This document shows positions 3,861 through 44,816 of a DNA stretch of 44,816 nucleotides, in pieces (the first letter of the stretch is position 1; every line of letters starts with the position of its first letter). The translations under genes were made by a program, and so were the position numbers. This DNA is from a bacterium (GTDB lineage Bacteria; UBP14; UBA6098), in NCBI GenBank assembly GCA_023145965.1, contig JAGLDC010000109.1:1-44816 (forward strand). The letters are read 5' to 3'. The notes beneath the pieces are model-generated. The model searched no databases and was not told where the DNA came from. It saw only the letters and a program-made list of their open reading frames with translations.

Positions 3861-6800
3861 TTATTTTATTAAACTAATTTTTCGAGTTTGCATGAAAGCC
3901 TGATCGTTATTTTGTGTTATAACACACATCTTGCAAAAATATGCACCTGATGGTAAATAGTCTCCAATCATACTTCTTCCATTCCAGGTTGTTTTATAAG
4001 TGCCAACTTTCAGGAAGTCCCGGACAATACTTGCTATCCTAATTCCCGCAAGGTTATATATGTCGATGGTTATATACGATTCGAAAGAAACATCAAATTC
4101 TATGTCCACTGTAGTATTGAATGGGTTTGGAACCGGATGCGCCAGAAAAAAGCTATTTGGGCAACATTTCAACCCATTTTCGCAAACTATTACCGATAAT
4201 TCTGAGTCAGCTACACATAACGAATCGCGGAATTCGCTTGTAAGATCGATATAATCCGGCGCTTTTAAAGTATCAAAATAGCAGAAATCTGCCTCGATAA
4301 CAGCATCAACACCATCAAAAGTCCATTCGGATAAGTCGGAGTAAAAACAGTTATGACCCGAACTACCACTACCAAAATCCAAGTGGCCCTCAGCTAAAAC
4401 ACAAGCATGAGTGAAACCTTCGAAAATGCAATTCCGGGCCGAAGTTTGACTCTTTTCTGAAGTAATCATATTATATTTACCTAAATTTGCATTGAATTGA
4501 CAAGCGGAAAAATCGCTCTCCCCACGGTTTATAATAGCGGTTCCCGGACCACCGAATATACAATTATAGAATTCCACGCTTGTAAAAACCTCGATTTGGC
4601 ATCCATAGGAAGAAGGCGTTTGAAAAATACAATTGTCAACAGATATCGAATTATCTTCACTATCAAGCTTTAAACCAGGAGCACCATCAAAGCAAGAACC
4701 ATAGATACATGACAATGATCTCCATCCAGTTAGCTCGACCGGACAATAAAAATTGCAGTCATTAATTGAAACTCTAGCTCCGCTTTTACAAGAATCACCA
4801 TCGATGAACATATTATCGCAGTCGATGAAACTCACAGACAATAATGAGCATGCACCGCAACTCCCAGCAGAACCAACCATTTCAACGACACTAGCATTTC
4901 TAATGTCGGCATGTTCGATAATAAGACTCCCGCCTTTAAGGGCGAAAATACCACCCAAATTATCATCGATGGTTCCTATTGGCAATCCAATAGAAATTGG
5001 ATTTTCGACAGTTCCCTTTATGTAAAGGCACGATGCTTTGCCCTCGCAGATAATTTCAGGACCTGCTAGCCCCGAATCACTTTCAGATCGACAACAAGTA
5101 ACGCTTGTGCCATCCAAAACAAATAGCGTATCCTCAATACCTACAGCAATTTGACCGAATATTTTGACATCGTCCCAAATATGCGTGTTTTCTATAAAAC
5201 ATGTCGCTGTCAAAATTTGAAAATCTTTATATCCAGGTTTTTTAATGAGCAATCGCATTGGAATACTCGGCTCGATATCGAACGGAAGGGCATATTCACC
5301 CGAAGTTTTTAGGCTTTCGCTGAAAATAAACCTTATCGAATCGCCTACTTGAATTAAAATCAATACCTGTTCTATAGGAACGCTACATTCGCTCGATGTA
5401 ATCATTATTACATCTTCTTCCCAGTCGATATCTACGGACATATGAGCTGTATCGAGAATCGATAGACCATCCGAATCCGGGGGATTTGGGAGACTACAGA
5501 GTATGTCAAATAATTCATTGTGAGACGGTGAAGATGAAGGTGCAATTGTGCTTTCAGGGAACGCGAGGGCACCATTACCTCTGATATTATAAAAATAGCC
5601 CTTACCCTCAGCGATTCCTATACTTGGCTTGAAATACCCAAGACAGGCATCGTAATAAAAAACAAAGCTCGACGAAATCTCCGTGCCACTACCAGTAAAA
5701 GTGTGAGATGTCTGCCAGGGTAAGCTATTAGCAGCCATGGAAATCGAGCCAATGGAATTCCATCCATCGATGACATCGATATCCCAGTGAAGAACCCCGG
5801 AGCCGAAAATCGAAAATGTATCGGTCGGGGCAGAAAATCTAGCCCAATATCCCTTCGATGGCTCAGGAATTTCTTCACATACATCGATGAATTCATGTAA
5901 TGCGGGATTCCATTGGAGAACTTGTTCCACTCCTGGAAGTATCTCGCCGAGTGTGCCGTAGCAAACCTCGACTGGAATAGAAATGAAATTCCAGCCTTCG
6001 TTAAGATTATAAGTAATTACCGAATCCTCATATTCAAGTAAGATAACTGGCAATTTTACAGTTTTTGTAATGAAGTCCCTTTTTGTGCAAGAAATATAAA
6101 GCGTGTCTTCATCGGGGTTAAGGTCCAATGCTGCGGCGATTTCATCAGAAGAAAAACTAACTTGATTACAGCCGTAGGGAATGACTTTGTAAAGTGGGGT
6201 TATATCATCGTTGAAATTGGTTGTGACACATATTTTTGTATCGTGAAGCCACCTCGCGGGTCCATCGGCATACACAGTTACATAAAGGCTGTCACCTGTT
6301 AAGTCATCGTGAATGTAATAGCAATCAGGGGAGGTCATTACAACATATTTTGAAGGTTCGTTTGGGCCATAAAAGCGAGTGAGTGGATCTCCTAGCAGCC
6401 TAGGCGACCAAATAAGGTAATTCCGCCATGCATCGCCGACGAGTTTTTGATATGCTCGAATTCTAGAAACAAAATCATGTGAATCGCCGCCATCGGTTAT
6501 GCCACCATAATAAAAAAGCGCACCTCGCCCTGTAAATTCATAACCAAACTCTCGGGCGGTTTGGCATCCGCCGGAGATAACACCGGTGGGATAACCCAGC
6601 TGGTGAAACAGAAGATTATAAGAGGTTAAAGCCCCTTCCCCTGAACCACAACACCCTCCCCCACTTTTATACCATGAGCCGTAATTGCCGTGGCCAAAAT
6701 GCCATACAACACCGTATTTATCGTTTTCGAGCGCCGAAACGATTGAATCATTAAGGGCGCGGACTGTCCCGAGTGGAAGCATGCCCATTGTTGTGTCGTG

Positions 6801-8045
6801 GCAAGTGTAATGCGTAAGATCGAAGCCAACGCTTCGAATAATAGATTCCTGGGCCAGCGCATCGACATAGCCATATATTATATCTGTTGTTTGAGAAACA
6901 AACATGAAGTCATTCCAATGGCCACCGGGTAACCATTCACTCTCATTTTGAATAATTCGGTCGACAAAACCTTCAGTGCCATAAGCGCTATAGTTATTAA
7001 CAGCCCATATCCTTCCAACACCGAGTTGAGGAAGATAAATTGGGAGAGAATATGCAGATTCCGTTATCGGAGGATGTGTAGCATTAAGGAATTTCATTCC
7101 GGGAAGACTATCCATATCGCAGTAGTCGGGACCTATCAGGCCAACATAGCTTAAATCGCCGTAACAATCGAAGGTATCAGCTATGAACATTCGTATCCAT
7201 GTTGTCTCCGACTCTGAGGGATAGATGCTATCGTAGATATCGTATATATCACGAGCGTTGACGGAATGGACTCTCCATCCTTGTTTATAGCGAAATTCGG
7301 CCAATTTTGCAGCACATTCTTCGTAATAGCCATTCGAGTGGTCAGCATAGATATAAAGAACTTGATAGCTCGAAGGTTCTGAAATTAAAGTATATGGAAG
7401 AGAATGGAGATTCAAAAAGTGTGATAGATATACATCCTCGAGCCATGATTCGAGACTGATTTCGCCATAATCACCATCGGCTGAGAGTCTAAGCTTAACC
7501 TTTCTATGAATTCGCAACGAATCACAAGAGGGATTAAACGAGTATAATTGAAAGCGGATAAAGGCTGCGCACAAAGACCTCCAAGGCGATACTCCCCTGA
7601 CAGTCGCGATATCTTTATAAAGCCAATCATTGGAGGAATACATCAAATTATCCAAACACCATTCGGATTCGCAACCGCTATAGTAGGGCGCGATTTTGAT
7701 GTCTCCAATCGTAGTGTCATCGACCTCGATAATGTCTAAATGCACATTCTTTGTCGATGGAATAGCGAGGGCAAAATCTAAGATTAGACTTGCAGGAGCA
7801 TTTGCGGATTCGCCGAAGTTCTTGAACCTTGAATTTGGTGCTTTAATGAAATGGAAACATGAATCTTCGATGAAGAAAGAATCGATTACAATGTCTGGAG
7901 TGGAAATAACTATTGTAATAGAATTCGGATTATCCTGTTCGATTTTGATAAAGTTATTTTGTGCGCTAATTGCAGCGACACAGATCAACGCAGTTATTAT
8001 TGACACATATAATTTAACTTGGTAACGATTAGCTATCTTCATCAT
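3861..8045 (-). CDS. Secreted C25 (gingipain-family) cysteine peptidase with beta-helix region and sorting domain
   Basis: 1394 residues. A signal peptide covers about residues 1-28 (hydrophobic YVSIITALICVAAISA). The caspase-like C25 peptidase domain spans about 225-560, with the catalytic His in FGHGN (about 451) and the catalytic Cys in SGGCQTAREF (about 492), both present. A 'GWNFISIPV' beta module follows near 680. Residues about 1030-1250 contain short repeats typical of a right-handed parallel beta-helix (GGIFALKGGSLIIEHADI). The last 85 residues (from VPNPFNTT) are a PNPFN-type sorting domain. This predicts an active extracellular or surface protease exported by a type IX-like system. 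An AAAGG site precedes the first ATG, and a second ATG follows directly. It is transcribed alone from 8074-8102. No secretion machinery lies in the window. Confidence 0.9.
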   Translation of the reverse strand: MMKIANRYQVKLYVSIITALICVAAISAQNNFIKIEQDNPNSITIVISTPDIVIDSFFIEDSCFHFIKAPNSRFKNFGESANAPASLILDFALAIPSTKNVHLDIIEVDDTTIGDIKIAPYYSGCESEWCLDNLMYSSNDWLYKDIATVRGVSPWRSLCAAFIRFQLYSFNPSCDSLRIHRKVKLRLSADGDYGEISLESWLEDVYLSHFLNLHSLPYTLISEPSSYQVLYIYADHSNGYYEECAAKLAEFRYKQGWRVHSVNARDIYDIYDSIYPSESETTWIRMFIADTFDCYGDLSYVGLIGPDYCDMDSLPGMKFLNATHPPITESAYSLPIYLPQLGVGRIWAVNNYSAYGTEGFVDRIIQNESEWLPGGHWNDFMFVSQTTDIIYGYVDALAQESIIRSVGFDLTHYTCHDTTMGMLPLGTVRALNDSIVSALENDKYGVVWHFGHGNYGSWYKSGGGCCGSGEGALTSYNLLFHQLGYPTGVISGGCQTAREFGYEFTGRGALFYYGGITDGGDSHDFVSRIRAYQKLVGDAWRNYLIWSPRLLGDPLTRFYGPNEPSKYVVMTSPDCYYIHDDLTGDSLYVTVYADGPARWLHDTKICVTTNFNDDITPLYKVIPYGCNQVSFSSDEIAAALDLNPDEDTLYISCTKRDFITKTVKLPVILLEYEDSVITYNLNEGWNFISIPVEVCYGTLGEILPGVEQVLQWNPALHEFIDVCEEIPEPSKGYWARFSAPTDTFSIFGSGVLHWDIDVIDGWNSIGSISMAANSLPWQTSHTFTGSGTEISSSFVFYYDACLGYFKPSIGIAEGKGYFYNIRGNGALAFPESTIAPSSSPSHNELFDILCSLPNPPDSDGLSILDTAHMSVDIDWEEDVIMITSSECSVPIEQVLILIQVGDSIRFIFSESLKTSGEYALPFDIEPSIPMRLLIKKPGYKDFQILTATCFIENTHIWDDVKIFGQIAVGIEDTLFVLDGTSVTCCRSESDSGLAGPEIICEGKASCLYIKGTVENPISIGLPIGTIDDNLGGIFALKGGSLIIEHADIRNASVVEMVGSAGSCGACSLLSVSFIDCDNMFIDGDSCKSGARVSINDCNFYCPVELTGWRSLSCIYGSCFDGAPGLKLDSEDNSISVDNCIFQTPSSYGCQIEVFTSVEFYNCIFGGPGTAIINRGESDFSACQFNANLGKYNMITSEKSQTSARNCIFEGFTHACVLAEGHLDFGSGSSGHNCFYSDLSEWTFDGVDAVIEADFCYFDTLKAPDYIDLTSEFRDSLCVADSELSVIVCENGLKCCPNSFFLAHPVPNPFNTTVDIEFDVSFESYITIDIYNLAGIRIASIVRDFLKVGTYKTTWNGRSMIGDYLPSGAYFCKMCVITQNNDQAFMQTRKISLIK

Positions 8046-8303: not shown

Positions 8304-9350
8304 ATGTTATGGGCTATGGTCGGTCTCGCAAGTAGTGGTAAATCGACATTATTTAAATTGATGACAAACAAAGGCTCCTCAGGTAAAAGCGGCAAGGGCC
8401 TCGACATTGCGGTTGCACATGTCCCCGATCCTCGCGTAAGCGTGCTGGTTGATATATTCGATCCCAAGAAGATAAGCCCTGCCGAAATTGAGTTTGCAGA
8501 TACTTTAGGTGCGGTTGGTTCGGGGGGTGCTGTTTTCTCCGAGCTTCAATCTGCGGGTGCAATGATATATTGCCTTCGAGCTTTCGATAGTGTTTTCGGT
8601 GATCCTACGCCTATAAAGGATTTTCGCGATCTTATGGGCGAATTGGTTCTTTTTGACTTGAATATTCTCGAGCACAAGATGGAGAGCATTGAAAAATCTC
8701 TTCGCACTGCCAAACCCGAGGTAAAGATTCGTATCGAGAATGAGATGAAAATTATCGAAGTGCTGAGAGCGCATCTGGAATCGGGTGGCCTCATTCGCGA
8801 CCTCGAGCTTGATCCCATTCGCGCAGAGATAGTTTCTAATTTCGGGCTTCTCACCGCAAAGCCTGCAGTAGCTGTTTTCACATGCGGCGAGGATTATTAT
8901 TGTAATAGAGACCGTTTAATTAATGAGTTAGATTCCGCATTCTCAGGTCTTCCCTCACTTGCCATTATGACACTAACCGAGCTGGAGCTTAACGAGTTAG
9001 ATCATGAATCTGCGGAGATCTTTCGTGAAGAATATAATTTGACTGAGCCTGTTATCGACAGGTTTATCATGAAAGCTTATGATGCAGCGGGGATCATAAC
9101 ATTTTTCACCTGCGGAGAAAAAGAGGTTCATGCATGGCCTATTCGCAAGGGGTCCAATGCTCTCGAAGCTGCGGGGAAGATACACACTGATTTGGCAAAG
9201 GGATTTATTCGTGCCGAGGTGGTTTCTTACGAGGACATACTAAAATATCATGGTTGGGCCCAGGCGCGTAATGCCGGGCATCTTCGAGTCGAGGGCAAGG
9301 AATATATTGTCGAGGATGGCGACACGATTGTAATTAAATTTGCGCTTTAA
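8304..9350 (+). CDS. YchF/OLA1-family P-loop NTPase (divergent)
   Basis: 348 residues, close to the usual 360 of YchF. The P-loop is GLASSGKST (residues 7-15), where YchF normally has GLPNVGKST. The C-terminal third matches the YchF helical and TGS-like end very well (TDLAKGFIRAEVVSYEDIL, then HLRVEGKEYIVEDGDTIVI). The switch motif reads DTLGA where YchF has DIAGL, and TCGED stands near where the NxxE nucleotide-specificity motif is expected, so this looks like a diverged paralogue rather than the standard housekeeping copy. YchF proteins are cytosolic ATPases that bind ribosomes and respond to stress. AAGGAGG (8291-8297) sets the ATG start. It is the first gene of an operon with the DUF401 permease 3 nt downstream. 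Confidence 0.85.
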   Translation: MLWAMVGLASSGKSTLFKLMTNKGSSGKSGKGLDIAVAHVPDPRVSVLVDIFDPKKISPAEIEFADTLGAVGSGGAVFSELQSAGAMIYCLRAFDSVFGDPTPIKDFRDLMGELVLFDLNILEHKMESIEKSLRTAKPEVKIRIENEMKIIEVLRAHLESGGLIRDLELDPIRAEIVSNFGLLTAKPAVAVFTCGEDYYCNRDRLINELDSAFSGLPSLAIMTLTELELNELDHESAEIFREEYNLTEPVIDRFIMKAYDAAGIITFFTCGEKEVHAWPIRKGSNALEAAGKIHTDLAKGFIRAEVVSYEDILKYHGWAQARNAGHLRVEGKEYIVEDGDTIVIKFAL

Positions 9351-24737: not shown

Positions 24738-24855
24738 CCTAAGGGGAGCTGGCGCGAAATTTACCTCGGAGCAAAATGGTAATCTAAAAGCAGAATGCTA
24801 GACCGACCGGACGCAAGCGTCGAGCCAAAGGCTCGACAACCGACGTCCCTCAAGG
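24738..24855. repeat. Mosaic multi-hairpin intergenic element B
   Basis: A GC-rich island between the divergent dnaX and 25075 promoters. It contains a perfect 8-bp hairpin GTCGAGCC / GGCTCGAC (24819-24826, 24830-24837) and a GACG / CGTC hairpin (24810-24821), with an imperfect outer pairing of 24738-24747 to 24846-24855. It shares GCTGGCGCG with A, GGAGCAAAAT (24768-24777) with D, and CCGACCGGAC (24803-24812) with F. The rest of the gap up to 24982 is AT-rich, with one inverted repeat ATTTAGT / ACTAAAT (24928-24945). Confidence 0.5.
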
Positions 24856-33777: not shown

Positions 33778-33932
33778 GGGGGCGCCAAATTTCTTAGCCC
33801 CAAGAAAAGTTAGCTTTCCTTGGGGCTGAGAAATCAGCGTAAGGCCGAAGTTAAATATATAGCAAAAAACCTCGATTATCTACCGCCCTTCCGCTCACCT
33901 TCGCGCTGACCATCGCGAAGGCCGGTGCCCCC
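33778..33932. repeat. Mosaic multi-hairpin intergenic element C
   Basis: Terminal arms GGGGGCGCC (33778-33786) and GGTGCCCCC (33924-33932) pair over 9 bp with one G-T. Inside, 33789-33834 forms a hairpin with 16 continuous pairs (one G-T), extended after one mismatch by four more. CCTTCGCG / CGCGAAGG (33898-33905, 33914-33921) forms a second. It shares CCAAATTTCT (33785-33794) with E and the arm GGGGGCGCC with G. It lies between two divergent promoters and fills most of the gap 33745-33983. Confidence 0.55.
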
Positions 33933-35743: not shown

Positions 35744-36196
35744 ATGTCTGTTAAGATTACCAATCGAAAGGCTTATTCGGATTTCGAGTTTGAAGATAAA
35801 TACGAGTCTGGAATAGAGCTTTTAGGACCCGAGGTTAAATCTATACGCTCAGGAAGAATTAGCTTGAAAGAGGCCTATGCTCGCATAATTAAAAACGAGG
35901 TTTGGATTATCGGGATGCATATAACTCCATATGATCACGTTGGTTATATCGAGATAAATTCGCGCCGAAGACGGAAGTTACTCCTTCATAAATATGAAAT
36001 CCGCAGAATAACAAAAAAAGTCGAGCAGGCCGGTTATACTCTCGTTCCACTCGAGCTATATTTCGATGAGAAAAACAGGGTAAAGATTCTTCTAGGGCTG
36101 GGAAAGGGACGGACAAAATACGACAAGAAGCAACATCTTATCGAAAAGCAAAAAATTCGAGAGATCGAGCGAGCGCTTAAAGAGAGAAACAGATAA
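35744..36196 (+). CDS. smpB: SsrA-binding protein SmpB
   Basis: 150 residues, normal length. The family opening (ITNRKAYSDFEFEDKYESGI), the ELLGPEVKSIRSGRISLKEA motif and the basic C-terminal tail (KGRTKYDKKQHLIEKQKI) are clear. SmpB binds tmRNA and takes part in trans-translation rescue of stalled ribosomes. It starts 7 nt after the pilB-like stop and is cotranscribed with it. No tmRNA gene was recognised in the window. A strong bidirectional terminator follows. Confidence 0.97.
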   Translation: MSVKITNRKAYSDFEFEDKYESGIELLGPEVKSIRSGRISLKEAYARIIKNEVWIIGMHITPYDHVGYIEINSRRRRKLLLHKYEIRRITKKVEQAGYTLVPLELYFDEKNRVKILLGLGKGRTKYDKKQHLIEKQKIREIERALKERNR

Positions 36197-36197
36197 A

Positions 36198-36225
36198 AAA
36201 AGGCCGAGTAAAAACTCGGCCTTTT
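36198..36225. terminator. Bidirectional terminator between smpB and the 36232 gene
   Basis: A perfect stem AAGGCCGAGT / ACTCGGCCTT (36200-36209, 36214-36223) has a 4-nt A loop, flanked by an A run on the left and Ts on the right. It serves both converging genes. Confidence 0.93.
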
Positions 36226-37540: not shown

Positions 37541-37682
37541 GGGGCGTCGAGATCTTTTTTTATTTGAAAGCTCGCTTTCAAATAAAAAAAGATCAGGCGA
37601 GCGGCCAAAACAAAAAAATACTAATATAATATTGGGCTGGCCGCACGCCATTTTGCTCTGTAGGAGCAAAATCCGACGCCCC
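37541..37682. repeat. Mosaic element D: perfect four-way-junction structure
   Basis: The outer stem GGGGCGTCG / CGACGCCCC (37541-37549, 37674-37682) is perfect. It encloses three hairpins: 37551-37570 / 37575-37594 (20 perfect bp, loop CTCG); 37596-37607 / 37638-37649 (11 of 12 bp, AT-rich loop); and 37650-37658 / 37664-37672 (9 perfect bp, 5-nt loop). Only 3 nt in the junction are unpaired. It shares GGGGCGTCG and AAAGCTCGCTTT with F and GGAGCAAAAT with B. It lies downstream of ligA, in the gap 37433-37708. Confidence 0.65.
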
Positions 37683-44636: not shown

Positions 44637-44784
44637 GGGGCGTCGGGCGTTGCGCATTCAGCCGCAACGCAGATGGCCGGTCGGCCAATAATGTCAGTCC
44701 GGAAACTATATTCCTCTCCGACCGGACAGCAATTTCGATGAACGAGAAAAGCTCGCTTTTCGAGAAGCCAGAAATCCCGACGTC
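44637..44784. repeat. Mosaic multi-hairpin intergenic element F
   Basis: The outer stem CGTCGGG / CCCGACG (44641-44647, 44776-44782) is preceded by GGGG, so the left end GGGGCGTCG matches element D exactly. Inside are GCGTTGCG / CGCAACGC (44647-44670), TGGCC / GGCCA (44674-44687), GTCCGG / CCGGAC (44697-44727) and GAAAAG / CTTTTC with loop CTCG (44746-44761), the last sharing AAAGCTCGCTTT with D. It also shares words with A, B and E. I see no gene from 44432 to the window end. Confidence 0.55.
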
Positions 44785-44816
44785 ACAGCAGCGGAGCAGC
44801 AATATGAGAGTTAATG

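Follow-up and report, generated by a model that had tools for sequence, protein, structure and literature searches.

The window analysed here is a stretch of 44,816 nucleotides from a genome designated G000. Downstream of ligA it carries a compact element (element D), on whose other side lies a gene for a SurA/PpiC-like peptidyl-prolyl isomerase (PF13145, 36463-37377). The first-pass annotation described this site as a near-perfect four-way junction that is very unlikely by chance, and both points are borne out by folding. With RNA parameters, the element reaches a minimum free energy of −74.1 kcal/mol, whereas 200 dinucleotide-shuffled sequences average −31.7 ± 3.7 and none of them folds as stably (z = −11.4). 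DNA parameters give −50.8 (z = −13.0). For its GC content it is the strongest fold within the window. The closing stem P1 has 9 bp and P2 has 20 bp with a loop of 4, while P3 has 11 bp, arranged as 4+7 around one mismatch, with a large AU-rich loop. P4 has 10 bp and a loop of 3 (9-10 bp according to the folding parameters), and 1, 1, 0 and 1 bases are free at the junction, exactly as claimed (Table 1).

Table 1 Features of element D and related copies in the window
Feature	Position	Strand	Evidence
Element D, complete copy, four-way junction	37541..37682	+	Folds; covariance model 118.9 bits, E 4.3e-31 (copy in training set)
P1 5' arm, closing stem GGGGCGTCG (terminal inverted repeat, CGTC tag)	37541..37549	+	Fold; family-conserved
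P2, 20-bp hairpin, family tip GAAAGCTCGCTTTC	37551..37594	+	Fold
P3, 4+7 bp hairpin, large AT-rich variable loop	37596..37649	+	Fold; homologous in position to P3 of other copies
P4, 10-bp hairpin	37650..37672	+	Fold
P1 3' arm CGACGCCCC	37674..37682	+	Fold
Second family copy, between divergently transcribed genes	33779..33931	+	Covariance model R1 97.8 bits, E 2.9e-25; outside training set; fold
Third copy, partly decayed	44637..44786	-	Covariance model R1 71.8 bits, E 4.2e-18; outside training set
Probable decayed copy, right half (part of P3, P4 and P1 left)	24743..24849	+	R1 12.8 bits, E 0.08

The idea that the structure could be only the ligA terminator is not supported: no stem with a T-run was found at element D, and the same element adjoins many other genes. 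An Rfam scan of the window returned tRNA only, with no match for element D. A separate hairpin (AAAAGGCCGAGT...ACTCGGCCTTTT, 36198-36225), right after the gene at 35744-36196, is likely an ordinary terminator. The tip of P2 (37566-37579), GAAAGCTCGCTTTC, which reads GAAAAGCTTGCTTTTC in copy L072, resembles the Pseudomonas GIII REP core GGGAGCTTGCTCCC (PMC3116915), as do the P2 tips of other G000 and G002 copies, and coincidence is possible in each case. The window holds four copies in total, three strong matches and the remnant at 24743. The structure was described correctly, but it was taken for a single site, whereas element D belongs to a repeat family.

A four-armed repeat family in one UBP14 genus

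To describe the family we compared G000 with two other species of the same genus, G001 and G002, the latter assigned to UBA6098 (candidate phylum UBP14) when GTDB r220 contigs were scanned; genome-wide statements rest on pattern and model searches. The 8-base end GGGGCGTC occurs in G000 as inverted pairs ~140-170 bp apart at many places, and the sequences between the pairs share the four-stem shape while differing in sequence. A covariance model built from 13 copies finds ~27 loci in G000 at E < 1e-2. G001 has at least 52 perfect-ended copies, counted with a pattern requiring both ends, and G002 has ~50. Searches for the 9-base end gave 49+52 matches in G002 and 63+59 in G001, and its reversed control gave 0.

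Across 60 relatives, the covariance model matched only in the two other species of the genus, and a near-identical pattern run over 193 genomes gave only two single matches outside it. Three Prauserella matches in the GTDB r220 scan are probably due to chance in GC-rich sequence (the one that was folded gave z = −2.25). Three pattern scans of viral contigs were empty, and a viral origin was rejected on that basis. Look-alike long hairpins occur in other genera at 0-4.5 per 100 kb, with no repeated family of such shape in these small samples. The four-armed repeat family is previously uncatalogued and so far known from one UBP14 genus only.

Its members are non-coding, ~125-175 bp long and dispersed over the three related genomes. 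All copies have the inverted ends GGGGCGTCGG...CCGACGCCCC, with extra pairing that reaches 1-2 bp beyond them, and three internal hairpins; a poly-T tail is absent. Copies in G000 and most of those in G002 have a long P2 with the tip GGAAAGCnnGCTTTCC, a P3 with a GGCCGG...CCGGCC stem and an AT-rich variable loop, and a short P4 (CGCGCATGCGCG in G002). G001 copies measure 125-136 bp and have the arms CCTGCGATTTnnnAAATCGCAGG, CGAAGTAGTCGG...CCGACTACTTCG, and GGCCGTTTACGGCC or GCGCGTTTACGCGC. Subfamilies with longer arms are represented by L104, L114, L115 and L089. Perfect, degenerate and truncated copies stand side by side. The closest pair is 93% identical (G001) and near-identical copies are absent, which indicates that there was no very recent burst. 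L044 (G000:C42, near 4750-4790) is a miniature derivative consisting of the two ends alone, GGAGGGCGTCGGCCATCTTGGCAAAAAAACCGACGCCCCCC, and resembles an element that has lost its three hairpins by deletion.

Pairing is maintained while sequence drifts

Of the 42 pairs in the alignment of 13 copies, 28 have changed on both sides. Covariation amounts to 0.418, against 0.163 in shuffled alignments and at most 0.12 with partners slid, a control that favours the structure because this was derived from the alignment on which it was scored. The P2 stem of 50 G001 copies has 2 non-Watson-Crick cells among the 684 counted. One pair of this stem occurs as all four Watson-Crick types (TA 17, CG 13, AT 12, GC 5), and its neighbour as CG in 28 and TA in 21 copies, with zero G.T and A.C. 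The P3 loop is highly variable while the stems stay paired. The maintenance that the first-pass annotation suspected from perfect stems is thus upheld, in that double-sided changes preserve pairing across copies and species. Founder subfamilies may explain part of the covariation pattern.

Genomic placement and shared sites

Neighbouring genes were taken as open reading frames of at least 100 aa, called mechanically, with frames overlapping the element excluded. The copies with resolved flanks are intergenic, at a median distance of 35 bp from a stop codon and 100 bp from a start. Gaps between divergent genes hold 25 of 88 copies (28%), and orientation relative to the neighbouring genes is unbiased (28 versus 21 in tandem contexts). 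Inspection of 90 copies revealed no consistent target duplication, only isolated direct repeats such as one of 9 bp near one copy.

Several genes adjoin an element in two or three species, and ligA has one downstream in all three. Such shared sites are several-fold above chance, by a rough estimate from gene counts and not by a formal test. The elements at shared sites are no more alike than random pairs, the pair L083/L102 (rank 1 of 45) excepted, and often lie in reverse orientation. Vertical inheritance of shared sites was rejected on these similarities, L083/L102 apart, and simple inheritance fits less well than insertion hot spots or a turnover in which new copies replace old ones. For the G000 site L073, the G002 counterpart has both flanking genes adjacent with no element between them, which is compatible with insertion and cannot prove it at such divergence.

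A probable structure at the level of DNA

When RNA pairing is under selection, G.U pairs are expected to exceed A.C on one strand. Counted over helices obtained from both strands together, G.U and A.C numbered 75 and 93, and with the stricter requirement that helices be present in both folds, 54 and 78. The RNase P control gave 107 versus 116 and 46 versus 37, respectively, a weak contrast that implies low power of the test, and weight was therefore placed on the G001 stem counts instead. We favour a DNA-level structure over the compact structured RNA that had also been suggested for element D, because there is no G.U excess and no orientation bias, copies lie between divergent genes, and element D has neither a terminator nor an Rfam match.

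Relation to known repeats

The nearest known systems are REPINs/BIMEs and CGTC-tagged REP dimers, which the family resembles in layout, covariation and placement. REPINs are inverted doublets of REPs with compensatory changes, on which a RAYT acts in trans (PMC3116915, PMC8049555). As in the REPINs/BIMEs of Pseudomonas and E. coli, the UBP14 elements are short and intergenic, and comprise two inverted palindromic units around a diverse spacer, with GGGGCGTCGG and a hairpin at both ends and end hairpins that usually differ. They also share single-strand hairpins with compensatory changes, tens of copies (within the tens to hundreds of REPINs/BIMEs) and a candidate single-copy Y1 enzyme in trans. 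In contrast to the one long hairpin of REPINs/BIMEs, the UBP14 ends pair directly and, with two unlike end hairpins and a structured spacer, give a closed junction of 125-175 bp that lacks the GTAG foot (PMC3116915, PMC8049555). No GTAG-type tag stands 5' of the palindrome, where the constant end is GGGGCGTC, and within the family GTAG is confined to the P3 stem of G001. In a sister genus, GGTAG-tagged 22-bp palindromes form a close array in L228 (G003:C60, ~4276-4420, 6926-7075 and 9076-9140; e.g. GGTAGGACAGACATTCTTGTCTGTCC) and look like classic GTAG-type REPs.

CGTC-tagged REPs form mainly HH dimers and have no known dedicated transposase; each has a stem of 8-9 bp whose first two positions are AT, a loop of 4-5 nt and a CCA tail (Di Nocera et al. 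2013, PMC3733652). The two systems have in common CGTC beside a palindrome, an inverted dimeric arrangement, heterodimers whose stems differ, spacers that are sometimes structured and the failure to find a dedicated transposase. The UBP14 stems, however, range over ~5-20 bp, and CGTC is paired within the closing stem P1. The combination of unpaired CGTC, 8-9 bp stem, 4-5 nt loop and CCA tail was not found in the family, which lacks a constant CCA tail, and UBP14 is not among the hosts named in the accessible part of that paper. We keep the family apart from REPINs and CGTC REPs because it differs in the absence of repeats flanking a RAYT, in the GTAG tag, and in stem, loop and tail.

A candidate enzyme

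All three genomes contain a Y1_Tnp gene (PF01797) whose product is 133-140 aa long and in which the HxH and YxxxQ motifs are both intact. In G002 there are two identical matches, possibly an assembly duplicate, with identical neighbourhoods (L205, G002:C5; L206, G002:C31). Against NCBIfam, the protein scores 42-47 bits with IS200 TnpA (cut-off 55) and 16-18 bits with RAYT (cut-off 80), being nearer to the former, and it weakly matches solved transposases. Y1 enzymes are expected to leave no target duplication. No family element lies within ~1.5 kb of the gene, unlike a RAYT flanked by repeats, and the gene is also found in relatives that lack the family. Like the IS200/IS605 TnpA of subclass 1.2, the Y1 of this genus is a low-copy, IS200-like HUH protein, and its Y---Q--RH is near the published Y---Q--HH (PMC6006769); it differs in being placed there by one inexact motif and in a link to elements by class only. 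The protein is thus a candidate mover, connected to the family by enzyme class only.

Discussion

Element D probably belongs to a family of non-coding miniature mobile DNA elements that is specific to the genus, resembles REPINs/BIMEs and would be moved by a Y1/HUH enzyme. Beyond the observed family, with its copy number, structure, covariation and intergenic placement, we infer mobility, a single-strand route and the enzyme. Mobility is suggested by the dispersal of copies with shared ends and topology, their covariation, their intergenic positions, the degenerate copies and the empty counterpart of L073. It is further suggested by the lack of target duplication, the Y1_Tnp gene in all three genomes and the literature on REPINs and CGTC REPs.

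Each element would consist of two inverted CGTC-tagged palindromes (P1+P2 and P1+P4) around a third, P3. On an exposed DNA strand, for example the lagging strand, it would close into a four-way junction, and the folded single strand would probably be recognised, and excised or copied, by an enzyme supplied in trans, most likely of the Y1/HUH class, leading to intergenic insertion. Selection at each round of mobilisation would keep the stems Watson-Crick perfect while stem sequence and P3 loop drift, and template switching from arm to arm may contribute to this perfection. The earlier comparison with recombination junctions holds in spirit if the junction is understood as one strand of a mobile DNA element folding on itself.

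Some points count against this reading. No movement was observed, the best pair of copies reaches the identity given above and no more, and bordering genes are shared above expectation, which requires hot spots or replacement. Against Y1 as the mover count its unflanked gene, its presence in family-free relatives and its scores below the NCBIfam cut-offs.

It is possible, if doubtful, that the family represents a new class of mobile or host element that would work as a closed DNA four-way junction, a single-strand mimic of a Holliday junction, with both arms of each stem rewritten together and species-specific sequences in one common shape, partly at the same sites. A host function without present mobility (protection of mRNA 3' ends, chromosome organisation or binding of a nucleoid protein), maintained by purifying selection site by site, appears unlikely. 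It would agree with the short distance to stop codons and with genes such as ligA, upstream of an element in all three species, but elements at shared sites resemble each other no more than randomly paired copies do and are often reversed, the copies between divergent genes lie where neither gene ends, and the species-specific subfamilies point to turnover.

Palindromic MITEs such as ERIC and the Correia type have terminal inverted repeats, ~100-170 bp, intergenic positions and no autonomy, as does the UBP14 family. An ordinary MITE family, in which a DDE transposase would recognise 10-bp terminal inverted repeats and the internal hairpins would be passengers, nevertheless seems rather improbable to us, even though the terminal repeats are perfect and the elements short, non-coding and dispersed. 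Target-site duplication is lacking overall, the single 9-bp repeat aside, and a passenger role leaves unexplained why the three internal hairpins are maintained as strictly as the ends. Among 16 loci with unpaired GGGGCGTC, which look like chance occurrences, none is a plausible autonomous partner, that is, a longer transposase-bearing copy with the same ends.

A mutation bias, by which template switching during replication repairs imperfect palindromes and changes both arms jointly without selection, is very unlikely as the main explanation. Homogenisation of inverted-repeat arms by template switching has been described (PMC8604942, PMC7202029), and the G001 pair that is CG or TA with no intermediate is what it would produce, but a few founder subfamilies could yield the same pattern. 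It explains neither the dispersal nor the conserved ends and P3 stem sequence, and the clearly decayed copies L085, L087 and L088 were left unrepaired. A multi-copy structured non-coding RNA is scarcely credible, as the compensatory changes and the high stability of the RNA fold are offset by the low-powered G.U counts, the unbiased orientation and the empty Rfam scan of the window.

Read as REPIN-like, the elements add such a family for a phylum without cultured members, and its architecture, the closed four-way junction, is unusually strict. The syntenic, sequence-unrelated copies, such as those after ligA in three species, make the choice between hot spots and rewriting in place directly testable. 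With more than 100 copies in three species, the family is a natural data set on how palindromic repeats stay perfect, and it bears on which enzyme mobilises CGTC-tagged repeats, a group with no dedicated transposase named in the literature (PMC3733652).
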